DNA of 64,000 nucleotides from Neorhizobium galegae. GTDB lineage: Bacteria > Pseudomonadota > Alphaproteobacteria > Rhizobiales > Rhizobiaceae. Both the position numbers and the translations under genes were made by a program. Positions 38,908 through 54,010 of this stretch are shown piece after piece (the stretch's first letter is position 1; each line of letters starts with the position of its first letter). The notes beneath the pieces were generated by a model, which saw only the letters and a program-made list of their open reading frames with translations, made no database searches and was not told the DNA's origin. The stretch covers positions 2,547,501-2,611,500 of the forward strand of contig NZ_CP090095.1 in NCBI RefSeq assembly GCF_021391675.1. The letters are read 5' to 3'.

Positions 38908-39612
38908 ATGATGGACGCGATGGTTGAAACCAAAGGGCATTATATCGACGCCGATCCCTATGCCTGGCCCTATAACGGCGATTTGAGACCCGAAAACACC
39001 GCCCTCATCATCATCGACATGCAGACCGATTTCTGCGGCAAGGGCGGGTATGTCGACCACATGGGTTACGACCTGTCGCTGGTGCAGGCGCCGATCGAGC
39101 CGATCAAGACAGTGCTCGCCGCCATGCGCGCAAAAGGCTACCACATCATCCACACCCGCGAAGGCCACCGCCCGGACCTCGCCGACCTGCCCGCCAACAA
39201 GCGCTGGCGCTCGCAGCGCATCGGCGCCGGCATCGGCGATCCCGGCCCCTGCGGCCGCATCCTGACGAGGGGCGAGCCCGGCTGGGACATCATCCCGGAA
39301 CTCTACCCGATTGAAGGCGAAGTGATCATCGACAAGCCGGGCAAGGGCTCGTTCTGCGCCACCGATCTCGAACTCATCCTCAACCAGAAGCGCATCGAGA
39401 ACCTCATCCTCACCGGCATCACCACCGATGTCTGCGTCTCGACGACGATGCGCGAGGCGAACGACCGCGGCTTCGAATGCCTGATGCTGGAAGACTGCTG
39501 CGGCGCCACCGACTACGGCAACCACCTCGCCGCCATCAAGATGGTCAAGATGCAGGGCGGCGTCTTCGGCTCCGTCTCCAATTCCTTGAACCTCGTGAGC
39601 CAGCTGCCATGA
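38908..39612 (+). CDS. biuH: Biuret hydrolase (isochorismatase-like cysteine hydrolase)
   Basis: 234 residues from ATG 38908 (or 233 from the adjacent ATG 38911). The cysteine-hydrolase triad is D37 (IIIDMQTDF), K143 ([10 protein letters not shown]) and C176 (TTDVCVSTT). Counting from the second Met gives D36-K142-C175, the residue numbers reported for Rhizobium leguminosarum BiuH, and the sequence closely matches that protein as I remember it. Reaction: biuret to allophanate and ammonia. The allophanate hydrolase needed next is encoded in the same operon. Its stop overlaps the ATPase start (ATGA). Confidence 0.93.
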
Positions 39613-41162
39613 ACAACGTCGTCCGCGATACTCCGCTCCCCAAGGCCGGCAAGGCGGTCGGCATCGAAACGCTCGGCATGACCATGCGCTTCGGCTCCTT
39701 CACCGCGCTCGACAATGTCTCGATCAGCGTGCCCGCCGGCTCGTTCCACGCGCTGCTCGGCGAAAACGGCGCCGGCAAGTCGACGCTCGTGAAATGCATC
39801 ATGGGTTTCTACCACGCCACATCCGGCTCGCTCTCGGTCGACGGCCGCGAAGTCTCGGTCGCCTCGCCCAAGGATGCAGCCACCTATGGGCTCGGCATGG
39901 TCTACCAGCATTTCACGCTCGTCCCCTCGCTGACCGGGGCCGAAAACCTGGTGATCAGCCGCACCTCCGTGCCCTCGGTGATCAACTGGGCGAAGGAGCG
40001 CAAGGATCTTGCCGCCTTCATGGAGCGCATGCCCTTCCAGATCCCGCTCGAACGGCCGGTCAGCGAACTGGCGGCCGGCGAGAAGCAGAAGCTGGAAATC
40101 GTCAAGCAGCTTTATCTCGGCCGCTCCTTCCTCGTGCTCGACGAACCGACCTCGGTGCTGACGCCGGCCGAGGCCGACGAAATGCTCGGTATCGTGCGCG
40201 GCATGACCGAACGCGGCGAACTGACCGTGCTGATGATCAGCCACAAGTTCCACGAGGTGACGAAGTTTGCCGATGCCGTCTCGATCCTGCGGCGCGGCAA
40301 GCTGGTCGGCACCGGCAAGGTGGACGAGCTTTCCACCGCCGACATGGCGGGGATGATGATCGGCGACGTCAAGCTCGCCGAACTGGACAGCCGCCTGCCC
40401 GTGCCGGAGGCGGCGAAATCGGTGCTGAAGGTCGAGCAGGTCAAGGCGCCGGACCGCTCCGGCCTGAAGACGATCGAGATCGACAACCTGACGGTCCGTT
40501 CCGGCGAGATCGTCGGCATTGCCGGCATTTCCGGCAACGGCCAGAAGGAGCTCACCGAAATCCTCGCTGGCCAGCGCCCGACTGACAGGGGCACCGTGAC
40601 CGTCAACGGCGAGGCCTATGGCGCGACCCGGCCCGAGACCCGCAAGAACAATGTCCGTTTCATCCCCGAAGAACCGCTGCAAAACGCCTGTGCGCCAAAA
40701 ATGACGGTCAGCGAAAACCTCGCCTTCCGCACCTTCGACCTGAAGGGTGACGGCAAGGATGCGATCTGGCTGAACAAGGGCGAGATGAAGAAACGCGCTT
40801 CATCGCTGATCTCGGACTTCAAGGTGAAGACCGCCTCGTCCTCCTCACCGATCGCCGCTCTATCAGGCGGCAACGTGCAGCGCGCGGTGCTCGCCCGAGA
40901 ACTGACCGGCGACGTGGACCTGCTGATCGTCTCCAACCCCTGTTTCGGCCTCGATTTTTCTGCCGTCGCGGAAATCCGCGCCCGCATCATGAGGGCCCGC
41001 AATTCAGGCACCGCCGTGCTGCTGCTCTCCGAAGACCTCGACGAGCTTCTGGAAATGTCGGACCGCATCATGGTGATCTCGGAGGGCAAGCTGGTCTACG
41101 AAACTCCGATCCGCGCCGCCGATATCGGCGTGATCGGCGCCCATATGGCGGGACATCACTGA
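39609..41162 (+). CDS. ABC transporter ATPase with two nucleotide-binding domains (BMP/nucleoside type)
   Basis: 517 residues from ATG 39609. NBD1 (about 15-250) has Walker [10 protein letters not shown], Walker [11 protein letters not shown] and an unusual signature [11 protein letters not shown]2 (about 270-500) has a degenerate Walker A (GISGNGQKE), a canonical signature LSGGNVQR, and SNPCFGLD replacing the catalytic D-E-P of Walker B. One good and one degraded site is typical for YufO/RbsA-like ATPases. It lies between the two cysteine hydrolases, coupled at both ends, so transport and hydrolysis are expressed together. Confidence 0.92.
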
Positions 41163-41845
41163 TGGGTCAGATCAAGGCAGAACCTTTCGCCTTTCCGGCC
41201 AAACCCGCGGCGCTTGCGCTTATTGTCATCGACATGCAGCGCGATTTCGCTGAGCCCGGCGGTTTTGGCGCAAGCCTCGGCAACGATGTTGGGCGCATCA
41301 CCAAAATCGTGCCGGACGTCAAACGTCTCATCCAGGGTTTTCGCGATGCCGGCCTGCCGGTCATCCACACGATGGAATGCCATAAGCCCGATCTCTCCGA
41401 CCTGCCGCCCGCCAAGCGCAACCGCGGCAACCCGTCCTTGAGGATTGGCGATCTCGGCCCCATGGGTCGGGTGTTGATATCCGGCGAACCCGGCACGGCG
41501 ATCATTTCCGAACTTGCGCCGATCGACGGCGAGGTGGTGATCGAAAAGCCCGGCAAAGGCGCCTTTTATGCCACCGAACTCGGTGAGGTGCTGAAGGCGA
41601 AAGGCATCAGCCAGCTCGTCTTTGCCGGCGTCACGACGGAAGTCTGCGTCCAGACGACGATGCGCGAGGCGAACGATCGCGGTTACGAATGCCTGCTCGC
41701 CGAAGAGGCGACCGAGAGCTATTTTCCCGAGTTCAAGGCGGCCGCCGTCGCCATGATCCGCGCCCAGGGCGCGATCGTCGGCTGGACCGCCCATGTGGAC
41801 GACATTCTGGAAGGGATCGCGCCAAAGGGGATGACCAATGCCTGA
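41162..41845 (+). CDS. Second isochorismatase-like cysteine hydrolase (possible triuret hydrolase)
   Basis: 227 residues. The triad D24 (IVIDMQRDF), K129 (VIEKPGKGAF) and C162 (TTEVCVQTT) is intact. It is a clear paralogue of the BiuH two genes upstream, sharing HKPDLSDLPPAKR and [14 protein letters not shown]. Triuret hydrolase TrtA belongs to this superfamily and works upstream of BiuH, so the position in a biuret operon makes TrtA a good hypothesis. Ureidoacrylate or another carbamoyl amidohydrolase is the alternative. Coupled to the ATPase (TGATG) and overlapping the cupin gene by 8 bp. Confidence 0.85.
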   Translation: MGQIKAEPFAFPAKPAALALIVIDMQRDFAEPGGFGASLGNDVGRITKIVPDVKRLIQGFRDAGLPVIHTMECHKPDLSDLPPAKRNRGNPSLRIGDLGPMGRVLISGEPGTAIISELAPIDGEVVIEKPGKGAFYATELGEVLKAKGISQLVFAGVTTEVCVQTTMREANDRGYECLLAEEATESYFPEFKAAAVAMIRAQGAIVGWTAHVDDILEGIAPKGMTNA

Positions 41846-42191
41846 ATCAACCCGCGAACTTCTGACGCTAGGCGGCTGGAAAGATTTGAAATTCGAGCCT
41901 TTCCGCGACGAGGTCACGATCCACTGGATCCGCCCCTTCGAGGGCGACCAGCCGGGCGTCGCGCTCTTGAAATACGAGGCCGGCGCCGGCGTTCCCCGCC
42001 ATCGCCATGAGGGCCTCGAAACCATCCTTGTGCTCGAAGGCGTGCAATCCGACGAGGCCGGCGACTACGGCCGCGGCAGCTATATCGTCAATGCGCCCGG
42101 CACCGAACACTCCGTCTGGAGCGATACCGGCTGCGTCGTACTGATCCAGTGGGACCGGCCGGTGACAATACTGGAAGAGGAAATGGCATGA
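41838..42191 (+). CDS. Small cupin-domain protein (ChrR-like)
   Basis: 117 residues, a single cupin barrel. The metal-binding motif appears as GVPRHRHEGLETILVLEG (about 51-68) with a second-half histidine in APGTEHSVWSDTGC. It resembles the anti-ECFsigma ChrR cupin domain but has no zinc-binding ASD domain and no sigma factor nearby, so it is more likely an accessory or metal-binding enzyme of the pathway. It overlaps both neighbours (8 bp and ATGA). Confidence 0.8.
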   Translation: MPESTRELLTLGGWKDLKFEPFRDEVTIHWIRPFEGDQPGVALLKYEAGAGVPRHRHEGLETILVLEGVQSDEAGDYGRGSYIVNAPGTEHSVWSDTGCVVLIQWDRPVTILEEEMA

Positions 42192-44017
42192 TTGCGACAC
42201 CAGCCTTCGATATCGCCTCGCTTCACGCGTTCTACCGGGGTGGCGGCGGTGTCGCGCAGATCGTCGAAGCGGTTTTCACGCGCATCGCCGAGATCGGCGA
42301 TCCCGGCATCTTCATCCATCTGGCCGACAGGCAGGCCGTACTGGCAGAAGCCGCCAAACTCGGCGCCTTCGATCCCGAAAAACCGCTGTTCGGCATACCC
42401 TTTGCCGTGAAGGACAATATCGACGTCGCCGGCATGCCGACCACCGCCGCCTGCCCGGACTATGCCTATCTGCCCGAGAAGGATGCGACCGTGGTCGGCC
42501 TGCTCAAGGCAGCCGGCGCCTTTGTCATCGGCAAGACCAATCTCGACCAGTTCGCGACCGGCCTTGTCGGGGTGCGCTCGCCCTATCCGATCCCAAGAAA
42601 TGCCATCGATCCGAAACTCGTGCCCGGCGGCTCCTCGTCCGGCTCGGCGGTCGCGACCGCGCAAGGCATCGTCAGCTTCGCGCTTGGCACCGATACCGCC
42701 GGCTCCGGCCGCATCCCGGCCGGCCTCAACAATATCGTCGGACTGAAGCCGAGCGTCGGCGCGTTGTCGACCAGCGGCGTGGTCCCCGCCTGCCGCACGC
42801 TCGACTGCGTCTCGATCTTCGCGCTGACCACGGACGACGCGTGGAAGGTCTTCTCCGTCGCCGCGAAATACGACGAGACGGACGCCTATTCGAAGGTCGT
42901 GCCGGCCACCGGCTTCGGCTCGGCGCGGCCGGTGCTGACGATCGGCGTGCCCGCCAAGGCGGACCTGCAATTCTTCGGCGATACTGTCATGGAGGCAGCC
43001 TATGGCGATGCCGTATCGATGCTTGCAAGGCTCGGACATCGCATCGTCGAAGTGCCCTTTGGCGCGTTCTACAAGGTTGCCAACCTTCTCTACGAAGGCG
43101 CCTGGGTGGCCGAGCGTTATGCGGCGGTAAAGCCATTCTTCGACACCAGGGAGGAAAGCTTCCACCCGGTAACGCGAAAAATCTATGGCGGCGCCAAATC
43201 GCTCTCCGCAGCCGACGCCTTCAAGGGCCTCTATGCGCTGCAGGCGCTGAAGAAGGTGCTGGCGCCGCTGATCGCCTCCGTCGATCTCTTCTGCGTGCCG
43301 ACCGCCCCGACCCACTATACGCGCGCCGATCTGGATGCGGAGCCGATCCGGGAAAACTCGCGACTCGGCACCTACACGAATTTCGTCAACTTGGCTGACA
43401 TGTGCGGCATCGCCGTGCCGACCGGTACTCGCGCAGACGGCCTGCCGGCCAGCGTCACGCTGCTCGCCCCCTTCGGCCACGACGGCCTCACCGCGTCACT
43501 GGCCCGTGACCTTCACCAGGCAAGCGGCCTCACCCTCGGCGCCACCAGCTGGCCGCTCCCGGCCCCATCGGAACCGCCTGCGGCCATTGCCGGCGATGCC
43601 CTGATCGACATCGTCGTGGTCGGCGCCCACCTTTCCGGCATGCCGCTCAACCATCAGCTTACCGATCTCGACGGCACTTTCTCCCGCGTCGCGAAAACCT
43701 CCGCCGCCTACAAGCTTTACGCGCTTGCCGGCACCGTGCCGCCGAAACCCGGCATGGTCCGCGTCGCCGAAGGCGAAGGCGGCGAGATCGAGGTGGAGGT
43801 CTGGAAGCTGACGCCGGCGGCCTTCGGTCTGTTCGTCGCGGCTATCCCGCCGCCGCTCGGCATCGGCACCGTTACCCTGTCGGACGGCACCTCGGCCAAG
43901 GGGTTCCTCGCCGAACCCTTCGCGCTTCAGGGCGCGCTCGACATCACCGCCTATGGCGGCTGGCGGGCCTATCTCAGGGAGTATGCATCGCTGCCGCGGG
44001 TCGGCAACGTCGGCTGA
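42188..44017 (+). CDS. atzF: Allophanate hydrolase
   Basis: 609 residues from ATG 42188, close to the roughly 600 of AtzF. The amidase-signature domain (1-about 460) has K75 (PFAVKDNID), cis-Ser S149 (GGSSSGS) and nucleophile S173 (GTDTAGSGR); the K-to-Ser spacings of 74 and 98 equal those of Pseudomonas AtzF K91/S165/S189. The C-terminal domain (about 470-609) is the AtzF-type decarboxylation domain. Reaction: allophanate to CO2 and two ammonia. No biotin carboxylase (urea amidolyase) partner is present, so the feed is biuret rather than urea. Last gene of the operon. Confidence 0.93.
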   Translation: MIATPAFDIASLHAFYRGGGGVAQIVEAVFTRIAEIGDPGIFIHLADRQAVLAEAAKLGAFDPEKPLFGIPFAVKDNIDVAGMPTTAACPDYAYLPEKDATVVGLLKAAGAFVIGKTNLDQFATGLVGVRSPYPIPRNAIDPKLVPGGSSSGSAVATAQGIVSFALGTDTAGSGRIPAGLNNIVGLKPSVGALSTSGVVPACRTLDCVSIFALTTDDAWKVFSVAAKYDETDAYSKVVPATGFGSARPVLTIGVPAKADLQFFGDTVMEAAYGDAVSMLARLGHRIVEVPFGAFYKVANLLYEGAWVAERYAAVKPFFDTREESFHPVTRKIYGGAKSLSAADAFKGLYALQALKKVLAPLIASVDLFCVPTAPTHYTRADLDAEPIRENSRLGTYTNFVNLADMCGIAVPTGTRADGLPASVTLLAPFGHDGLTASLARDLHQASGLTLGATSWPLPAPSEPPAAIAGDALIDIVVVGAHLSGMPLNHQLTDLDGTFSRVAKTSAAYKLYALAGTVPPKPGMVRVAEGEGGEIEVEVWKLTPAAFGLFVAAIPPPLGIGTVTLSDGTSAKGFLAEPFALQGALDITAYGGWRAYLREYASLPRVGNVG

Positions 44018-44339: not shown

Positions 44340-45251
44340 TTACATCGACCAGGTCTCGCTGATGCGGCGGATGCATTGCAGCAGATTGACCGTCGTCGGC
44401 GTCATCAGGCCCTTCTTGCGGCGGTAGACGCGGAACGTCCGCTGCCAGTCGAGTTCGGGCACGTTGACGCGTGCCATGTCGCCCCGTTCCACCTCCTCGC
44501 GCACCAGGGGCAGCGGCATCCAGCAGAACATCGCTTCCGAGAGAACCGCGGCTTTCAGAACCGGCACCGAGCGGGAGACGATCGACGGCGCGTTCGGCTC
44601 CAGCGCATTGTCGTGGAACCGCCGCTGCCACTCCCTGACGGTCGGTGTGCCCGGTGGAGGCATGGCCCAGTCGAAGCCCGCCGCCTCGGCAAGCGCTACA
44701 TGCTCTCGCCTGATGATCGGATGATCGGCCCTCGCAAAGACCGACACGGTGTCGTGCATGATATCAGGCGTCGCCATGATGATGTCGTCGTCGAGATAAG
44801 GCTCCGGTGAAATCGCGATATCGATCGTTCCGCCCTTCAGCCCTTCCAGCACCCGGTCCTCAAGATCCTCGATGACCTGGTACTGCACTTCCGGATGCTG
44901 TTTGCGCATCTCGCCGATCACGGCGATGATGAAGCCGCCGACGACGCTCGCGACCCCGCCGATCCGCACCACGCCGCGGCTGGCACCGCGCATCTGCTGG
45001 ATCACGTCGGTCGCATTGCCGATCTCGGAAACGACCAGTTTGGCATAGGGAAGCAGGGCATCTCCGAACACGGTCGGCACCACCCCGCGCGTCGTGCGCT
45101 CGAAGAGAGGAACGCCGTAGCTGTCCTCCAGCCGCTTCAGCATGCGTGTGATCGCCGGCTGGGTCATGTTCAACGCGGTCGCTGCCGCGCCGAGGCTGCC
45201 GCGCCGCGCGCATTCGAGAACGATTTGAGCCGATCGCACATCCAAAGTCAT
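44340..45251 (-). CDS. LysR family transcriptional regulator
   Basis: 303 residues. The N-terminal HTH (about 5-62) contains RRGSLGAAATALNMTQPAITRMLKRLE; the C-terminal LysR substrate-binding domain (about 90-295) follows. It is divergent from the decarboxylase-dehydrogenase fusion gene, 125 bp apart, with an inverted repeat between them. It probably activates the fusion gene in response to an aromatic acid intermediate. Confidence 0.9.
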   Translation of the reverse strand: MTLDVRSAQIVLECARRGSLGAAATALNMTQPAITRMLKRLEDSYGVPLFERTTRGVVPTVFGDALLPYAKLVVSEIGNATDVIQQMRGASRGVVRIGGVASVVGGFIIAVIGEMRKQHPEVQYQVIEDLEDRVLEGLKGGTIDIAISPEPYLDDDIIMATPDIMHDTVSVFARADHPIIRREHVALAEAAGFDWAMPPPGTPTVREWQRRFHDNALEPNAPSIVSRSVPVLKAAVLSEAMFCWMPLPLVREEVERGDMARVNVPELDWQRTFRVYRRKKGLMTPTTVNLLQCIRRISETWSM

Positions 45252-45376: not shown

Positions 45377-48300
45377 ATGAACAAGATGTCGCTGGATTTC
45401 CTGTCCGGCAGCACGAAGCTGCGTGGACAGACGGTAAGCGAGGCCGTTTTCGACTTTCTGAGGCAGAAGGGCATCGACCGCATTTTCGGCAATCCGGGCT
45501 CGACCGAACTGCCGATGTTCGTCAATGTGCCGGAAGACTTTTCCTATGTGCTCGGCCTGCAGGAATCGATCGTCGTCGCCATGGCAGACGCCTATGCGCA
45601 GACGACCCGCAAGCCGGCCTTCGTCAACCTGCATTCGGCCGCCGGCCTCGGCCATGCGCTCGGCAATATCTACACGGCCTATCGCAACCGCGCGCCGCTG
45701 ATCATCACCACGGGACAGCAGAGCCGCGAGCTGCTGCCCCACGATCCGTTCCTGTTTGCCGAAAGCCCGACGGAATTTCCGAAGCCCTATGTGAAATGGG
45801 CCTGCGAACCGGCCCGCGCCGAAGACGTGCCGGCAGCGATTGCCCGCGCCTACTATATGGCGATGCAGGCGCCCCGCGGCCCGGTCATGGTCTCGGTCCC
45901 CTTGAGCGACTGGCAGGCACAGGCAGCCCCGATCGCCATCCGCGACGTGGAAACGGTGATCAGTGCGCCGGCCTCGGCGATCGACGATCTTGCCCGCCGG
46001 CTGAACGATGCCCGCGAGCCGGTGCTGGTCGTCGGACCGGGCGTCGATATCGACAATGCCTGGGATGCGACGGTGCGGCTGGCGGAAATCCTGCAGGCGA
46101 AGGTGTGGGTAAGCCCGCTTTCGTCGCGCTGCAGTTTTCCGGAACGCCATCCGCTTTTTGCCGGTTTCCTGCCGGCCTTCCAGCCGAAGCTCGCGAACTG
46201 CCTGCATGGCGCCGATCTCGTTCTGGTGCTCGGCGCGCCGGCCTTCACCTATCATTTCGCCGGCTCCGGCCCGGATATCCCGGCAGGTGCGGAACTGTGG
46301 CTGATCACCGACGACCCGGCCCAGGCGGCAAGCGCCATCGTCGGCAACGCCATGGTCTCGAACCTGCGCGCCGCCACCGAAAGCCTCGTCTACCGCCTGC
46401 GCTGCCGCCCGCAGCGCACCGGCGGCCCGGCCCGCACCATTCCGCGCCTGAAGCAGCCGAAGGGCATCACCCAGGAATTCTTCTACCAGACGCTGGCCGA
46501 CGTCCGCTCGCCGGACAGCATCGTCTTCGAGGAAGCCCCAAGCGGCCGTGACGCGCTGCACGACTTCTTCCCGATCGAACGGCCTGGCGGCTTTTTCGCC
46601 ACCGCCAGCGGCGGGCTCGGCTATGCCCTGCCCGGCTCGGTGGGCGCCGCCCTGACCAGGCCGGAACAGCCGGTCATCGCCGTCATCGGCGACGGATCGA
46701 GCCTCTATTCCATCCAGTCGATCTGGTCTGCCGTCGAATACGATGCCGATCTCATGATCGTCATCCTCAACAACGGCGGCTACAAGGTGCTGAAGGCGAT
46801 TGCCGAGCGGAGCGGCTCCGGCCGTATCGACGGCGTCGATATCGGCCACATGGATTTCGTGAAAATCGCCGAGGCGCAGGGCTGCAAGGCCGTTCGCTGC
46901 GAAAAGGGCGATGAACTGTCGTCATGCCTGCGGGACCTTCTGAAAATGAAGGGGCCGCGGCTTTTGGAAATCATACTATCCGAGGAGGAGACTGAAATGA
47001 ATGTCGCGGTCAGAAACGAACAGATCCTGAAAACCCCCGAAAAATTCTTCATCGGCGGTGAATGGGTCGCCCCGCTCGGCACCAACAAGCTCGACGTCAT
47101 CTCGCCGGTGACCGAAGAAGTGCTGATGAGCTATCCGGAAGCCAGCAACGCCGATATCGACAAGGCCGTTGCCGCCGCCCGCGACGCCTTCGACAACGGC
47201 CCCTGGCCGCGCATGACCTTCAAGGAGCGCGCCGGCTATCTGCGCAAGATCGCCGACCTGCTGACCGCCCGCCTCGACGAGATCGCCAATGCCTGGACGA
47301 CCCAGGTCGGCGCGCCGATCTTCCTGACCAAGAAGCTGGTCGGCCAGAACCCCGGCCTCTACAACTACTATGCCGGCCTGATCGAGAACGACGAGTTCGT
47401 CGATCAGCGCAAGCGTGCCGATGGCGGCGAAGTCCGCGTCGTGCGCGAGCCGGTCGGCGTCTGCGCCGCGATCACCCCGTGGAACGCGCCGATGGTGCTC
47501 CTGAACTACAAGGTCTCGGCAGCGCTTGCCGCCGGCTGCACGATTGTCGCCAAGCCCTCGCCGGAAACCCCGCTGGACGCCTATCTGCTCGCCGAATGCA
47601 TCGAGCAGGCTGGTATCCCCAAGGGCGTCTTCAACCTCGTTCCGGCCGGCCGCGAAGGCGGCGATTATCTCGTGCGCCACACGGGCATCGACAAGGTCTC
47701 CTTCACCGGCTCGACCATCGCCGGCAAGGTGATCGCCGCAGCCTGCGCCGATCGGCTCGCCCGCGTCAGCCTGGAACTCGGCGGCAAGTCCGCAGCCGTG
47801 CTTCTCGATGACGCCGACTTCACCAAGGCGCTGCCCGCCCTGATGGTCTATTCCATGCCGATCACCGGGCAGGTCTGCTTCTCGCTGACCCGCATCCTGG
47901 TACCGGAGTCCCGCAGCCAAGAATTCATCGACCTCTATGTGGGCGCGGTGAAGAACATCAAGGTCGGCGATCCGGCTGATCCAACCACCCAGATGGGCCC
48001 GCTCACCATGGCCCGCCAGCTTGCCCGCGTCGAAGGTTACATCGCCGCCGGCCGCGCAGGCGGTGCGACGGTTGCCTGCGGCGGCGGGCGCCCGAAGGGC
48101 CTCGACCGTGGCTACTTCATCGAGCCGACCGTCTTCACCGACGTGACGATGGACATGAAGATCGCCCAGGAGGAAATCTTCGGACCGGTCGTGTCGATCA
48201 TCAGCTACAAGGACGATGACGAAGCGGCGAAGATCGCCAACGACAGCACCTACGGCCTGTCCGGCGCGGTGTTCACCTCCGATCCGGAGCGTGGTTATGC

Positions 48301-48460
48301 CTTTGCCCGCCGCATGCGCACCGGCAGCGTCACCGTCAACGGCATGATCGTCGACATCCACCATCCGTTCGGCGGCTTCAAGCAGTCCGGCATCGGCCGC
48401 GAGGGCGGTCCCGAAGGTCTCGAAAACTATTTCGAGGTCAAGACGATTCACATGGCCTGA
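45377..48460 (+). CDS. Fused benzoylformate decarboxylase - aldehyde dehydrogenase
   Basis: One uninterrupted ORF of 1027 residues, ATG 45377 with GGGAGGAGG upstream. Residues 1-540 are a ThDP decarboxylase: catalytic Glu in GLQESIVVA, His in NLHSAAGLGHALG and His in GAPAFTYHFAG match the E47/H70/H281 positions of Pseudomonas MdlC, and GDGSS...LNNGGY is the ThDP-Mg motif. Residues 541-1027 are a full NAD(P)-aldehyde dehydrogenase (about 487 residues, normal free-standing length) with Asn in TPWNAPM, Glu in LELGGKS and nucleophile Cys in GQVCFS. The joint activity would turn a 2-oxo arylacetate into the aldehyde and then the aryl carboxylate. Codon use is uniform across the joint. Confidence 0.93.
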   Translation: MNKMSLDFLSGSTKLRGQTVSEAVFDFLRQKGIDRIFGNPGSTELPMFVNVPEDFSYVLGLQESIVVAMADAYAQTTRKPAFVNLHSAAGLGHALGNIYTAYRNRAPLIITTGQQSRELLPHDPFLFAESPTEFPKPYVKWACEPARAEDVPAAIARAYYMAMQAPRGPVMVSVPLSDWQAQAAPIAIRDVETVISAPASAIDDLARRLNDAREPVLVVGPGVDIDNAWDATVRLAEILQAKVWVSPLSSRCSFPERHPLFAGFLPAFQPKLANCLHGADLVLVLGAPAFTYHFAGSGPDIPAGAELWLITDDPAQAASAIVGNAMVSNLRAATESLVYRLRCRPQRTGGPARTIPRLKQPKGITQEFFYQTLADVRSPDSIVFEEAPSGRDALHDFFPIERPGGFFATASGGLGYALPGSVGAALTRPEQPVIAVIGDGSSLYSIQSIWSAVEYDADLMIVILNNGGYKVLKAIAERSGSGRIDGVDIGHMDFVKIAEAQGCKAVRCEKGDELSSCLRDLLKMKGPRLLEIILSEEETEMNVAVRNEQILKTPEKFFIGGEWVAPLGTNKLDVISPVTEEVLMSYPEASNADIDKAVAAARDAFDNGPWPRMTFKERAGYLRKIADLLTARLDEIANAWTTQVGAPIFLTKKLVGQNPGLYNYYAGLIENDEFVDQRKRADGGEVRVVREPVGVCAAITPWNAPMVLLNYKVSAALAAGCTIVAKPSPETPLDAYLLAECIEQAGIPKGVFNLVPAGREGGDYLVRHTGIDKVSFTGSTIAGKVIAAACADRLARVSLELGGKSAAVLLDDADFTKALPALMVYSMPITGQVCFSLTRILVPESRSQEFIDLYVGAVKNIKVGDPADPTTQMGPLTMARQLARVEGYIAAGRAGGATVACGGGRPKGLDRGYFIEPTVFTDVTMDMKIAQEEIFGPVVSIISYKDDDEAAKIANDSTYGLSGAVFTSDPERGYAFARRMRTGSVTVNGMIVDIHHPFGGFKQSGIGREGGPEGLENYFEVKTIHMA
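46982..46999 (+). promoter_or_regulatory. Internal ribosome-binding site and in-frame ATG at the fusion joint
   Basis: GAGGAGGAG (46982-46990) sits 6 bp before ATG 46997, which is in frame and coincides exactly with the start of the dehydrogenase half (codon 541). It can initiate a free aldehyde dehydrogenase in addition to the fusion. Confidence 0.6.
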
Positions 48461-49005: not shown

Positions 49006-50301
49006 TTATCTCATCGTTTGCGGCAGCCAGAGCGAGATCACCGGGAACGCCACCAGCAGGAAAAGCCGGATGATATCGTTGAGAATGAAAGGCATGACGC
49101 CGCCGTAGATCGTGGTGATCTTCACGTCCTTCGCAATCGAATTGATGACGAAGACATTGATGCCGACGGGCGGCATGATCATGCCGAGCTGGCAGGCGAC
49201 GACGATGATGATGCCGAACCAGACCGGGTCGAAGCCAAGATGGCTGATGACCGGGAACACGATCGGCACGAGCAGGATGATCATCGCCATCTCGTCCATC
49301 AAAGCCCCCGCGATCAGGAAAATGACCAGGATCAGCGTCAATGTTCCGTATGGTCCGAGATCCATTCCGACCAGCATTGCCGTCAGCTTCTGCGGCGACT
49401 GGGTGATCGCCAGGAAATAGCCGAACAGGATGGCGCCGATCAGCACGCTGAACAGCGAAACCGACGTCCGGAGCGACTCCACGAGGCTCGCCATGATGGA
49501 CCGATAGTTCAGCCGGCCGCGCAGCAGGCCGATGACCATGGTCATCAAGGCCCCGACCGCCGCCGCTTCCGTCGCGGTGGCGATACCGAGATAGATTACC
49601 CCGATGACGGAAATGAAAAGAAGCATGACGGCCCAGACGTCCCGAAGCGATGCGAGAGCCTCCCTCAGCTCGAACGGCTTTCCGGGCGGCAACCGCTTGC
49701 CGTGGGCGATCAGCACGGTCGCCATGTACATGAAGGTCGCCATGATGCCGGGGATGATGCCGGCCATCAGCAGCTGCGCGACATCCGTCTCCGTCAGAAA
49801 GGCGTAGACGACCATGATCACCGAAGGCGGGATCAGAATACCGAGTGTGCCGCCTGCGGCGATAACGCCGGTCGAGGTGGCATCGGCGTATTTCGCCTTG
49901 CGCATCTCGGGCAGCGCGATGCGGGTCATTGTCGCGGCGGTCGCAATCGAACTGCCGCAGATCGCCGCAAATCCGGCACAGGCGCCGATCGTGGAGAGCG
50001 CGAGCCCTCCCCGGAACTGTCCGAGCCAGGCATTCCCCGTCCTGAACAGTTCCCGCGACATGCCGGAATTGGTGGCAAAGGCCCCCATCAGGATGAAGAA
50101 CGGCACGAGCGTCAGGTTGAAGTCGGTAATCACGCGGATCGGCGATGTCGTCAGCAGGTTGAGCGCCGGCGACATGCCGCGCATGGCGGCAAAGCCGAAT
50201 ATGCCGACCAGCCCCATCGAAACGCCAAGCGGAACGCGCAGGCCCATGAGCACGAACATGGCGACAAAGCCGCCGATAGCGACGAGATCAGCAGTATTCA
50301 T
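49006..50301 (-). CDS. dctM: TRAP transporter large permease (DctM)
   Basis: 431 residues, about 12 membrane segments, standard DctM length. Family blocks include VPFFILMGAFATNSGMSRELF, GSSIATAATMTRIALPEM and GGTLGILIPPSVIMVVYAFLTE. It exchanges sodium for a carboxylate ligand delivered by DctP. Its start overlaps the dctQ stop (ATGA). Confidence 0.93.
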   Translation of the reverse strand: MNTADLVAIGGFVAMFVLMGLRVPLGVSMGLVGIFGFAAMRGMSPALNLLTTSPIRVITDFNLTLVPFFILMGAFATNSGMSRELFRTGNAWLGQFRGGLALSTIGACAGFAAICGSSIATAATMTRIALPEMRKAKYADATSTGVIAAGGTLGILIPPSVIMVVYAFLTETDVAQLLMAGIIPGIMATFMYMATVLIAHGKRLPPGKPFELREALASLRDVWAVMLLFISVIGVIYLGIATATEAAAVGALMTMVIGLLRGRLNYRSIMASLVESLRTSVSLFSVLIGAILFGYFLAITQSPQKLTAMLVGMDLGPYGTLTLILVIFLIAGALMDEMAMIILLVPIVFPVISHLGFDPVWFGIIIVVACQLGMIMPPVGINVFVINSIAKDVKITTIYGGVMPFILNDIIRLFLLVAFPVISLWLPQTMR

Positions 50302-50798
50302 ACGCCATGGCCCTCAAGCGGATCGATATCTTCAGGTTCGCGCCGAACGAAAGGCGAGATCGCGGTGGTGACGACGGCCGATGCGCAGCCGAGCCAGATC
50401 AGTCCGATCAATGGCCAGACGGGGATGCGCAGATCGAACGTCGCTTCATTGCTCCGATAGGCGCTGGCGAGGCGGAAGAACATCATGTAGGCAAGCATGG
50501 CCGTGAAGGCGAGGAGCAGCGCCCAGGCGATGAAATTGAGGACGCGGCGCCCCCGCGGCCCCATCGGCTCGTAGAGCAGGTCGACCGCGATATGCCCGCC
50601 GCGATAACCGAGCGACGCGAGACCCCACATGATGCAGGCGCCGATCAGATAGCGCGAAATATCGAAGGAGTCTGGGATCGGCCACGCCAGGACATAGCGG
50701 CCAACGGTGGAAGCGACGATCAGGATGGTACACAGCCCCAGCAGGATGCCTGCCACAAGATCGACCACGTCGCTGAAGCGTTCCAGATAGCGGTTCAT
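50298..50798 (-). CDS. dctQ: TRAP transporter small permease (DctQ)
   Basis: 166 residues from ATG 50798; upstream in-frame extension is not hydrophobic. Four membrane helices are visible, with the family motif RYVLAWPIPDSFDISRYLIGACIMWG and GYRGGHIAVDLLYEPM. It couples the binding protein to DctM. The gap to dctP is 74 bp and includes a hairpin. Confidence 0.9.
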   Translation of the reverse strand: MNRYLERFSDVVDLVAGILLGLCTILIVASTVGRYVLAWPIPDSFDISRYLIGACIMWGLASLGYRGGHIAVDLLYEPMGPRGRRVLNFIAWALLLAFTAMLAYMMFFRLASAYRSNEATFDLRIPVWPLIGLIWLGCASAVVTTAISPFVRREPEDIDPLEGHGV

Positions 50799-50827
50799 GG
50801 ACAGCACTCGATGAACAGATGGAAAAG

Positions 50828-50852
50828 GGCGGGCGCCGCGACAGCACCCGCC
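50828..50852 (-). terminator. Attenuator hairpin between dctP and dctQ
   Basis: On the minus strand GGCGGG / CCCGCC forms a stem followed by CTTTTCC in the dctP-dctQ gap, the usual way binding-protein expression exceeds that of permeases. Confidence 0.55.
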
Positions 50853-50872
50853 TGCGAATGGTCCCGCACGCG

Positions 50873-51892
50873 CTATTTCACGTCGGCGCCGTATTTCTTG
50901 AGTGTCTCTTGCAGGCTCGCCCAGGCCGCCTTCGCGTCTATGCCGGCCTTGGTGGCTGCAGTCTCCCATTCGCCCTGCAGCGAACCTGTCGCCTTTTTCC
51001 AGAGGCCTACTTCATCCGGGGTCGGCTTGTAGAGGGTGTGGCCGCCCGCATCGATCATCTTCTTGCGCCCGGCCGCTTCCGCATCGGCCCATTTGCTGGC
51101 CATCTTCTCGGCCCATTCGGGCGTGCAGTGATCGTCGATCACCTTGCGGTCGGCGGCGGAAAGCCCGTCGATCTTGGCCTTGTTCATCACGAAGGCAAAG
51201 GTCGTCGCGTAGAACGGCAGGTCGAGATGATGCTTGGTCACGTCCTGCAGACCGAACGTATAGATCGAGTTCCAGGGCGAGGCAGTCATGTCGGCACCTC
51301 CCTTGGAGATCAGTTCGCGCATTTCGCCCGCCGGCACCTGCACCGATGCGGCGCCGAGCGAACTCACCATGCGGGCCATGGTCGCGTGCGCCGGGCGGAT
51401 GTTCTTGCCCTTCAGGTCGGCAGGAACCTGGATCGGTCCCTTGACGCCGTGCAGCGTTCCCGGGTCATGCAGATGCACCATGCAGACGTAGACGTCCTTC
51501 ATTTCCTTCTGGGCGTACTGCCCGTACCATTCGTCGATCGCCCGCGACCCGCCCTTGGCATTGGCGATCAGGAAGGGAATTTCGCCCGCCGCGATGATCG
51601 GGAAGCGCCCCGGCTGATAGCCCGGATTGATGAAGCCGATATCGACGATGCCGTCGCGCGCCATGTCGTAATGATCGGGTGCGGCGCCGAGCTGAGAGGC
51701 GGGGTATATGGTGATGTTGATGCGCCCGCCGGACGCTTCTTTGATCGATTTCGCCCAAGGCTCCATCCCGCCCGGCTGCAGCGCATGAGTGGCGGGGACC
51801 CAGTGCGACAATGTCAGTTCCACGTCGGCGGCGTGGGCGGGTGCAGTCAGCGCCGCGAGGCAGGCCGAAGCGAGCAATGCCTTCAGTTTCAT
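50873..51892 (-). CDS. dctP: TRAP transporter substrate-binding protein (DctP)
   Basis: 339 residues with signal peptide (about 1-21, ending PAHAAD). Family features: VELTLSHWVPATHALQPGGMEPWAKSIKEASGGRINITIYPASQLG and the ligand-arginine region around LKGKNIRPAHATM (about 158-170), where the conserved Arg binds the ligand carboxylate. The carboxylate is probably an aromatic hydroxy acid, given the neighbouring FAD dehydrogenase and decarboxylase fusion (inference). Confidence 0.9.
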   Translation of the reverse strand: MKLKALLASACLAALTAPAHAADVELTLSHWVPATHALQPGGMEPWAKSIKEASGGRINITIYPASQLGAAPDHYDMARDGIVDIGFINPGYQPGRFPIIAAGEIPFLIANAKGGSRAIDEWYGQYAQKEMKDVYVCMVHLHDPGTLHGVKGPIQVPADLKGKNIRPAHATMARMVSSLGAASVQVPAGEMRELISKGGADMTASPWNSIYTFGLQDVTKHHLDLPFYATTFAFVMNKAKIDGLSAADRKVIDDHCTPEWAEKMASKWADAEAAGRKKMIDAGGHTLYKPTPDEVGLWKKATGSLQGEWETAATKAGIDAKAAWASLQETLKKYGADVK

Positions 51893-52298: not shown

Positions 52299-52621
52299 GT
52301 CAGGGCTCCTGAGATTTTTCCGATAGGCACTTCAACCGCGGTTCAAACCGTCTAGAATGTCGCGGCAGCACTTCATGCATACACGGCAGGATGAATGCGG
52401 CAACAAGGCGGGGCTGGGAGACGCTGATCTTAAGGAGGGAATGTTCGGCCGGGAGAAACTGCCGGCCGATCGGTTGGGATACGGTAGCGGCGTCCAAAAC
52501 CGTTCGCGGAAACGCCGGGACGCGCCAAGATTTCCGGCCCTGGTTGCTTTGGATCCGCAAGCCGGATCGAGCCCTGGGCACGATTATTTCAAGTCATCAT
52601 TGCGGCATCAGGGAGGAAAAA

Positions 52622-54010
52622 ATGGAAGATCTCGTCACGCCGGTCGGTCAGGCGATTGCGAAACTCAAAGGCATTCTCGGCGACAGGCTGGTGACCTCGG
52701 CTTCCGTTCGAGAGCATCACAGCCACGATACGTCGCGGCTCACCCCTCACCTGCCCGATGCCGTCGCCTTTCCGCGCATCGAAGAAGAGGTCCAGGCGAT
52801 CGTTTCTGCCTGTGCTGCGCATGGCGTACCGGTCGTGCCGTTTGGTGCGGGGTCCTCGATGGAAGGCCATACGATCCCGATCCGCGGCGGCATCTCGCTC
52901 GATACCCGCGAGATGAACAGGATACTCGAGATCCGGCCCGAGGACCTGCTGGCCGTCGTCCAGCCCGGCGTCACCCGCAAGCAGCTCAATGTGGAGTTGC
53001 GCGAAACCGGCCTGATGTTCTCGGTGGACCCCGGCGCCGATGCCTCGATCGGCGGCATGGCCTCGACCCGCGGCAGCGGCACCACTTCGGTGCGCTACGG
53101 CACGATGCGAGAAAACGTGCTGGCTCTCCGGGTGGTGACACCCGACGGCGAGGCCATCCAGACTGGATCGCGGGCCAGAAAATCCTCGTCCGGCTACGAC
53201 CTGACGCATCTCTTCGTCGGCTCCGAAGGCACGCTCGGCGTCATCACCGAATTGACCGTCCGCCTGCATCCGATCCCGGAGGCCGTTTCATCCGCCATCT
53301 GCTCCTTCCCGACGGTCGCCAATGCCGTCGAAGCGGTGATCGAGGCGGTGCAATACGGCATCCCGGTCGCCCGCGTCGAATTCCTGGACGAGGTGGCGAT
53401 CGCCTCGACCAACAATTATTCGAAGCTCGGCCTGCCGGTCGCCCCCACCCTGTTCTTCGAGTTCCACGGCACCGAGGCCTGGGTGAAGGAACAGGCGCGG
53501 CTTGTCGAGGAGATCACCAAGGGCCATGACGCGATCTCCTTCCGCTGGACCGCGGATGCGGACGAGCGCGCCAAACTCTGGCAGGCCCGCCACGATCTCT
53601 ACTGGGCGACCAAGGCGATTATTCCCGGCTTTGAGCTCTATACCGGCGATATCTGCGTGCCGATCTCGCGGCTTGCCGAAAGCATCGTCGCGGCGCGCGC
53701 CGATATCGATGCCTCGTCGCTGACAGGCCAGATCATCGGCCATGTCGGCGACGGCAATTTCCACACCGCCTACCTGATCGACCCGAACAATCCGGACCAC
53801 CTGAGGCAAGCCGACGAGATGGCCGACCGGGTCGTCGAACGCGCACTCGCCGTCGGCGGCACGGCGAGCGGCGAACACGGCATCGGCATCGCCAAGCTCA
53901 AGTTCATGCGCAAGGAACACGGCAAGGCGGTGGATGTGATGAAGAAGATCAAGGCCGCGCTCGATCCGCTGGGGATCATGAACCCGGGCAAGATGGGTGA
54001 CGCTGGCTGA
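52622..54010 (+). CDS. FAD-linked 2-hydroxyacid dehydrogenase (GlcD/D-lactate dehydrogenase family)
   Basis: 462 residues from ATG 52622 with AGGGAGGAAA upstream; the longer frame is unlike the family. The FAD_binding_4 domain (about 40-220) has VPFGAGSSMEGHTIP and DPGADASIGGMASTRGSGTTSVRYGTMREN. The C-terminal FAD-oxidase domain ends with GHVGDGNFHT and SGEHGIGIAKLKFM, which carry the substrate/metal histidines. Such enzymes oxidise D-2-hydroxy acids (lactate, glycolate, 2-hydroxyglutarate, mandelate) to 2-oxo acids and pass electrons to the respiratory chain. Divergent from the TRAP importer; D-mandelate-type substrates would feed the decarboxylase fusion. Confidence 0.9.
   Translation: MEDLVTPVGQAIAKLKGILGDRLVTSASVREHHSHDTSRLTPHLPDAVAFPRIEEEVQAIVSACAAHGVPVVPFGAGSSMEGHTIPIRGGISLDTREMNRILEIRPEDLLAVVQPGVTRKQLNVELRETGLMFSVDPGADASIGGMASTRGSGTTSVRYGTMRENVLALRVVTPDGEAIQTGSRARKSSSGYDLTHLFVGSEGTLGVITELTVRLHPIPEAVSSAICSFPTVANAVEAVIEAVQYGIPVARVEFLDEVAIASTNNYSKLGLPVAPTLFFEFHGTEAWVKEQARLVEEITKGHDAISFRWTADADERAKLWQARHDLYWATKAIIPGFELYTGDICVPISRLAESIVAARADIDASSLTGQIIGHVGDGNFHTAYLIDPNNPDHLRQADEMADRVVERALAVGGTASGEHGIGIAKLKFMRKEHGKAVDVMKKIKAALDPLGIMNPGKMGDAG

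Follow-up and report, generated by a model that had tools for sequence, protein, structure and literature searches.

The 64,000-nucleotide window analysed here, from Neorhizobium galegae (contig NZ_CP090095.1, positions 2,547,501 to 2,611,500 of the forward strand), contains a gene in which a thiamine diphosphate (ThDP)-dependent decarboxylase of the benzoylformate decarboxylase (BFD) family and an aldehyde dehydrogenase (ALDH) are joined in a single open reading frame (ORF). We consider it probable, at roughly 0.6, that this gene encodes a bifunctional aryl-glyoxylate decarboxylase-ALDH within a cassette that also holds a tripartite ATP-independent periplasmic (TRAP) transporter and a flavin adenine dinucleotide (FAD) enzyme, that the fusion had one origin, and that free ALDH is a possible second product. 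The gene and its two halves are as follows.

45377..48460, + strand: fusion gene, ThDP decarboxylase (BFD family) plus ALDH, 1027 residues, described by its domains, family scores and relatives
45377..46978, + strand: decarboxylase half, residues 1-534, with catalytic-site residues S42, E63, H86 and H293
46997..48457, + strand: ALDH half, residues 541-1027, with N703, E800 and C834

The ORF runs from an ATG to a TGA through 1027 codons with no internal stops. Pfam places TPP_enzyme_N at residues 19-121, TPP_enzyme_M at 202-334, TPP_enzyme_C at 394-532 and Aldedh at 563-1024, the last of these (PF00171, 529.8 bits) spanning profile positions 1-461 of 461 and hence a full domain. When aligned with the Pseudomonas putida BFD, residues S26, E47, H70 and H281 of that enzyme fall on S42, E63, H86 and H293 of the fusion, and these four, together with N703, E800 and C834 of the ALDH half, show no variation across a chosen set of 55 aligned fusions, made up of 54 of the 82 two-domain proteins from the protein search described below plus the window's own. 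The catalytic roles that we attach to S26, E47, H70 and H281, and to the Asn, Glu and Cys of the ALDH, are presumed ones.

The decarboxylase half scores 681.8 bits against the benzoylformate decarboxylase family NF005485, over its curated cut-off of 493. Its best match in the PDB is 5dgd (418.2 bits), which we take to be a designed variant; the native-type 1bfd scores 414.3 bits. The ALDH families among the best 25 of 96 NCBIfam rows are all below cut-off, the top one being betaine-aldehyde dehydrogenase (440.3 bits versus 668.6), and the best 60 of 259 solved relatives of the ALDH half are headed by 3b4w and by betaine-aldehyde-dehydrogenase-type enzymes; none of these 60 carries an MdlD-type name, MdlD itself being outside the comparison. 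A sequence-only reading of the window had described two mandelate-pathway enzymes, of the MdlC and MdlD types, fused in one 1027-residue ORF with both active sites intact. The single ORF is borne out, the presence of all the residues named above predicts two intact sites, and a BFD-family decarboxylase is indeed joined to an ALDH; the MdlD-type label finds no support in the ALDH rows just given.

Other genomes, where the sequence-only reading had proposed to look for the fusion, contain it as well. A protein search that took candidates of 0.55 to 1.75 times the query length gave 920 matches among 8000 scored; ThDP-enzyme and Aldedh domains occur together in 82 of the best 120, which were listed, and 67 of those listed (P0001-P0067) are full-length or near-full fusions (988-1059 residues, 65-94% identity, 91-100% query cover). 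In a species-level genome collection, 14 of the 75 loci fetched (L009-L022) have the fusion in one frame over residues 1-1027, with best segments 72-98% identical to the window's fusion, in records of Neorhizobium, Rhizobium, Xaviernesmea, Aquamicrobium, Aminobacter and other Rhizobiales, and fused proteins are found in Rhizobiaceae and in records named Hyphomicrobiaceae, Pseudoruegeria and Pararhodobacter. Where eight relatives differ from the window's gene, the changes sit mainly at third codon positions; this holds for both halves and for the joint between them, and argues that the joint is real coding sequence. An assembly or sequencing artefact, in which a lost stop joins two genes in this single sequence, can be dismissed: relatives in the split state do exist, but 14 further fetched loci and 67 database proteins have the same unbroken frame, and the stop codon or frameshift at the joint that the sequence-only reading had named as evidence against a fusion is absent from these independent genomes.

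A match at 1e-180 or better was present in 21 genomes of a 394-genome sample of the host family: seven, the window's own genome included, have the fusion over (nearly) its whole length, two have it in part and 12 have the ALDH part only. Within the genus, two of eight listed genomes carry it. The order sample (397 genomes) and the class sample (385 genomes) held ALDH parts only, with no fused gene besides those of the own genome and G047, and in a phage collection searched with P0030 no place reached at least 80% query cover. The fusion gene is conserved where present, yet accessory and uncommon. Five shorter proteins (P0073, P0074, P0076, P0078 and P0079; 648-815 residues, on contigs of up to 4.4 Mb) also have ThDP-enzyme and ALDH domains and are possible truncations or frameshifts of the fusion.

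In a tree of 64 rows, the fused decarboxylase halves form one clade with support of 100/99; its rows include 40 fused ones (the window and 39 of the 67 database proteins), 11 hand-chosen database decarboxylases and four plasmid loci. In all five loci from Pseudooceanicola and relatives (L024-L028), the decarboxylase and the ALDH have a gene each, within one cluster in which TRAP genes separate the two, and LysR, BFD, DctP, DctM and ALDH are clustered in five of five. A separate decarboxylase tree, which included the ALDH-only row P0115 that is absent from the 64-row tree, places these split decarboxylases as the sister group of the fused ones (93/100). A single clade of fused ALDH halves, on the other hand, was rejected (approximately unbiased (AU) test, p 0.0058) with 58 rows; this set derives from 100 rows thinned to 67 (position-by-position identity over 93%), from which nine long or distant rows were then left out. 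Because the decarboxylase halves form one clade and the ALDH halves do not, the simplest reading is a single fusion, after which several lines lost the decarboxylase half, although an exchange of ALDH halves, or fusion on more than one occasion, would be compatible with the contrast between the trees as well. The fusion probably came about when the decarboxylase stop codon was lost just upstream of the ribosome-binding site and start of the ALDH gene.

Free ALDHs that are 69-79% identical to the second half occur in 12 genomes of the family and two of the order (L092-L105). Seven of these 14 (L092, L093, L096, L097, L098, L099 and L102) adjoin a second ALDH gene (36-39% identical), and a branched-chain-type binding protein follows in L104 (in L137) and L100 (in L139); the free ALDH seems to serve another pathway.

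Two further BFD-ALDH fusions, P0081 (1037 residues) and P0082 (1041 residues), are known as database proteins only; they share the domain order and have a Met near the joint. Their ALDH lies far from the window's in the tree and their decarboxylase halves lie on other branches, and a common origin of all BFD-ALDH fusions was rejected, one fused clade that includes P0081 and P0082 having an AU p of 4.8e-6. A search of 299 genomes with P0081 gave matches in 33, and outside the window's lineage the rows reported show the decarboxylase and ALDH apart, none fused. The two are tandem genes on plasmids of Burkholderia, Variovorax and Bradyrhizobium; the one-piece Variovorax match H25, considered as a fusion, proved to be two genes with a stop between them. 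In four plasmid matches from Nitratireductor, Shinella and Ochrobactrum (H2, H4, H5 and H6), an 'acetolactate synthase large subunit' gene adjoins an ALDH gene; these pairs are 32-33% identical to the fusion over 95-98% and represent another ThDP-enzyme/ALDH pair.

Two features mark the joint itself.

46982..46990, + strand: GAGGAGGAG, an in-frame Shine-Dalgarno-like stretch encoding EEE, recognised from its sequence, with the strongest pairing of all Met codons of the gene
46997..46999, + strand: Met541, an in-frame ATG inside the gene that lines up with the predicted start codon of the free ALDH relatives

At the Met541 position each of the 14 free ALDHs has a codon that could serve as a start (13 ATG, and one GTG in L103), and a purine-rich stretch such as GGGAGGA, as judged by eye, precedes them; these starts are predicted ones, and several of the frames are open further upstream. 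The joint residue of the 67 fused proteins is Met in 65 and Val in two. Fused loci carry GAGGAGGAG or a variant upstream of the joint Met, read as EEE, EEK and similar, and in many of P0024-P0058 the joint Met is preceded by DKE or DKD. Since an ALDH start codon and a Shine-Dalgarno sequence survive in frame, free ALDH may also be made. Tentatively, and with the odds somewhat against it, one mRNA might yield both the 110-kDa fusion and a free 52-kDa ALDH able to co-assemble with it, so setting the ratio of active sites, and later lineages might have freed the ALDH at the same start codon. It is nearly an even chance that the internal ATG and its Shine-Dalgarno sequence are instead inert relics of an ancestral operon, the 110-kDa protein being the only product.

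The statistics that bear on these two possibilities come from the DNA of 19 fused loci, several of which are near-copies of one another; L084, L088 and L089 were left out as copies (their match values are the same as those of L011, L022 and L021), L091 is partial, and L090 contains a run of N and two decarboxylase pieces in different frames, so only the part after the run was read. Several observations speak against inert relics. The joint Met has the strongest predicted pairing with the 16S tail among all Met codons in 18 of the 19 fused genes, and its Shine-Dalgarno sequence is stronger than synonymous codons would give over 10 representatives, which are still related (Fisher p 3e-4); the joint residue, moreover, is Met or Val in every one of the 67 proteins. 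Among 13 Rhizobium/Neorhizobium genes, the two 11-codon windows that begin at codons 536 and 537 have a synonymous diversity of 0.104 versus a mean of 0.264, ranking 16 of 1017 from the bottom, with 14 overlapping windows at three other places (55-56, 780-783 and 819-826) lower or equal. The window's gene uses GAA 38 times and GAG 21 times overall, yet has GAG three times at the joint. The Fisher signal is carried by L012 (0.002), L014 (0.005) and L085 (0.017), whereas four of the 10 representatives show no excess over synonymous codons (L021, 0.54; L022, 0.89; L087, 0.40; L090, 0.54) and three more give intermediate values (the window's own gene, 0.12; L013, 0.11; L086, 0.11), as relics might, and codons for EEE easily yield such a motif. 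The joint Shine-Dalgarno is strong in part of the Rhizobium/Neorhizobium group and not in Aminobacter types. One study reports fewer internal Shine-Dalgarno sequences than expected in highly expressed genes (PMC5100845). For the Rhizobium group internal initiation is a reasonable hypothesis; elsewhere it is a hypothesis and nothing more.

The fusion gene is surrounded by the following genes.

44340..45251, - strand: LysR-family regulator, divergent, conserved beside fused and split versions (family score, tblastn)
49006..50301, - strand: TRAP transporter large permease DctM (TIGR00786, over cut-off)
50298..50969, - strand: TRAP small permease DctQ, named from its conserved position between DctM and DctP, with no NCBIfam match
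50873..51892, - strand: TRAP solute-binding protein DctP (family score, PDB relatives, tblastn)
52391..54010, + strand: FAD-linked D-2-hydroxyacid dehydrogenase, GlcD/LDHD-like (domains, PDB relative, tblastn)

The DctQ ORF as given overlaps DctP and probably starts too far upstream, and the true start of the GlcD/LDHD-like gene is probably further in, towards 52600. Neighbourhoods were mapped by tblastn with the window's proteins. Throughout L009-L022, LysR is divergent to the fusion (14/14) and DctM, DctQ and DctP are convergent on its other side (14/14), and the GlcD/LDHD-like FAD gene follows the TRAP genes in 13 of the 14. The solved sequences closest to DctP are 7nqg (330 bits), then 5i5p, 5iga, 5im2 and 4p56, TarP itself being outside the comparison. 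The FAD gene encodes FAD_binding_4 and FAD-oxidase_C domains; it scores 344.5 bits against the GlcD equivalog, below the cut-off of 567.9, and among solved proteins it is closest to the mitochondrial D-lactate dehydrogenase 8jdc (489 bits), which we take to be the mouse LDHD of PMC10589216. A Rhodococcus plasmid has a GlcD-like gene (33%) immediately after a decarboxylase gene (39%) and, some 1.7 kb upstream, an ALDH gene (50%), so that, together with the fusion cassette, the three steps recur together. Protocatechuate uptake in R. leguminosarum is by a TRAP transporter according to PMC3333776.

Three other observations concern neighbouring genes. Positions 39477-44017 encode a biuret amidohydrolase-like protein (239.5 bits, cut-off 370), an allophanate hydrolase (807.6 bits, cut-off 511.05) and ABC (ATP-binding cassette)-ATPase-like and cupin-like ORFs named by eye; this is a separate nitrogen cluster, which adjoins the fusion in eight of the 14 loci L009-L022. 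Tandem DctP pairs stand beside one DctQ and one DctM in L021 (15192-17211), L022 (15139-17176) and L140 (2832-4927), which suggests that two binding proteins share one TRAP permease. In L022 (18697-20286) and L141 (13761-15425), the GlcD/LDHD-like gene is directly preceded by a gene for another ThDP enzyme, a distant one that is 24-26% identical to the decarboxylase half.

From these parts a pathway can be proposed in which the TRAP transporter would import an aromatic 2-hydroxy acid and the adjacent FAD enzyme would oxidise its D-form to the 2-oxo acid. This aryl-glyoxylate would then be decarboxylated to the aldehyde by the ThDP half of the fusion, and the ALDH half would convert the aldehyde to the carboxylic acid with NAD(P) (nicotinamide adenine dinucleotide or its phosphate), completing the shortening of the side chain; channelling of the aldehyde between the fused active sites, as the sequence-only reading proposed, would be plausible. 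The likely product in the host would be a 4-hydroxybenzoate-type acid, which would enter the PobA/protocatechuate route. The own genome encodes PobA (684.4 bits, over the cut-off of 538.7) and PcaH (358.8 bits, over 296.4), and in it no BenA over the cut-off (a partial-profile match reaches 99.8 bits versus 780.95) and no BoxB match were found. Given this combination, a 4-hydroxybenzoylformate-like substrate fits better than benzoylformate, and we favour it. According to citations in PMC7760541, R. jostii and P. fluorescens have 4-hydroxybenzoylformate decarboxylases for aryl-C2 lignin fragments. On a Burkholderia anthina plasmid the gene order is mdlC, ALDH, a small ORF, a major facilitator superfamily (MFS) gene, 4-hydroxybenzoate 3-monooxygenase and hydroxy-acid oxidase; these genes relate to the other fusion lineage (71% to P0081).

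The substrate pocket was compared at positions 377, 397, 460 and 464 (P. putida numbering), which are P, A, V and I in the window's protein. Every other aligned row shown has P at 377 and A or T at 397, all differing from P. putida, and these two positions were therefore discarded as fusion-specific marks. At position 460, eight of the 13 other fusions shown have A and five have V; at 464, ten have I and three have M. The 464 change tracks the fused lineage and may mark a substrate shift, the P. putida wild type presumably having F there. A literature search for BFD plus A460 and F464 found nothing. As read from the alignment, the pocket residues neither prove nor refute a 4-hydroxybenzoylformate-like substrate.

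Several points weigh against the proposed pathway. Position 464 is F in four of four split sister rows, so that the substrate may be a different one; no GlcD-like gene turned up in the L011 stretch or in the split-locus stretches examined; and the clearest aromatic neighbour set, that of B. anthina, belongs to genes only about 48% (decarboxylase) and 33% (ALDH) identical to the window's halves. That several of the solved relatives of DctP (7nqg, 5i5p, 5iga, 5im2 and 4p56) are aromatic-acid complexes is a presumption, and a literature search for '7NQG' found nothing. The negative for BoxB is a weak one, since none of 14 control genomes was over cut-off, and the own genome has a benzoate-CoA ligase match of 370.1 bits, just under the cut-off of 375.25. 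This last match leaves room for a benzoate route, the search having covered BenA, BoxB and benzoate-CoA ligase.

That route is the one of the sequence-only reading, which had proposed a classical mandelate enzyme taking benzoylformate through benzaldehyde to benzoate. The NF005485 score, the retention of the P. putida catalytic residues and the near-cut-off ligase are all in keeping with it, as is the P. fluorescens relative, which PMC7760541 cites as accepting benzoylformate as well as 4-hydroxybenzoylformate. With V/I at 460/464, and with PobA and PcaH in a genome that lacks BenA over cut-off and any BoxB match (subject to the weak control), we nevertheless regard benzoylformate as an unlikely substrate here. 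An aliphatic or arylpyruvate-type 2-oxo acid, such as phenylpyruvate, in place of an aryl-glyoxylate would suit the presence of I or M at 464 in the window's protein and in 13 of 13 other fusions shown, where the four split sister rows have F, as well as the V/I pair that the window's protein shares with 5dgd; the FAD neighbour is closest, among solved proteins, to LDHD, whose substrates are small to moderate hydrophobic D-2-hydroxyacids. The 460/464 pair is not constant, though, with A at 460 in eight and V in five of the 13 other fusions shown, and the family over whose cut-off the protein scores is named benzoylformate decarboxylase, which makes such a substrate rather improbable.

In the mandelate pathway of P. 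putida, MdlC and MdlD are separate enzymes. If the favoured substrate is right, the fusion would perform the same two chemical steps in the same order, and its decarboxylase half belongs to the same family as MdlC and has the same four catalytic-site residues; it differs in being one polypeptide, adjoined by an FAD D-2-hydroxyacid dehydrogenase and a TRAP transporter. PaaZ, PutA and DmpFG combine, within a single chain or complex, a step that yields an aldehyde with an ALDH, and the fusion would follow the same logic of aldehyde hand-over with a different aldehyde-producing partner. The bzf cluster of Pseudomonas sp. LLC-1, which acts on aryl-C2 acids, resembles the fusion locus in clustering LysR, decarboxylase, transporter and ALDH genes, but according to PMC7760541 its genes are separate and its transporter is of the MFS type, where the fusion locus has one chain and a TRAP transporter.

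The sequence-only reading knew of no characterised enzyme of this kind, and a literature search likewise found no BFD-ALDH fusion in titles or abstract starts, subscription journals being mostly outside the search. Fused proteins carry database names that mention 'benzoylformate decarboxylase' or both domains, so the fusion has been deposited in databases yet apparently not described. We regard it as a natural, conserved one-chain version of the decarboxylation-oxidation pair in the catabolism of aryl-C2 acids. The database proteins P0081 and P0082 indicate that a similar fusion came about a second time, with a different ALDH; this recurrence hints at a benefit of keeping the aldehyde between two active sites, and the fusion would be a ready system for tests of aldehyde channelling. 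The start signal kept at its joint would also offer a clear test of whether bacterial genes, once fused, still make their parts separately.

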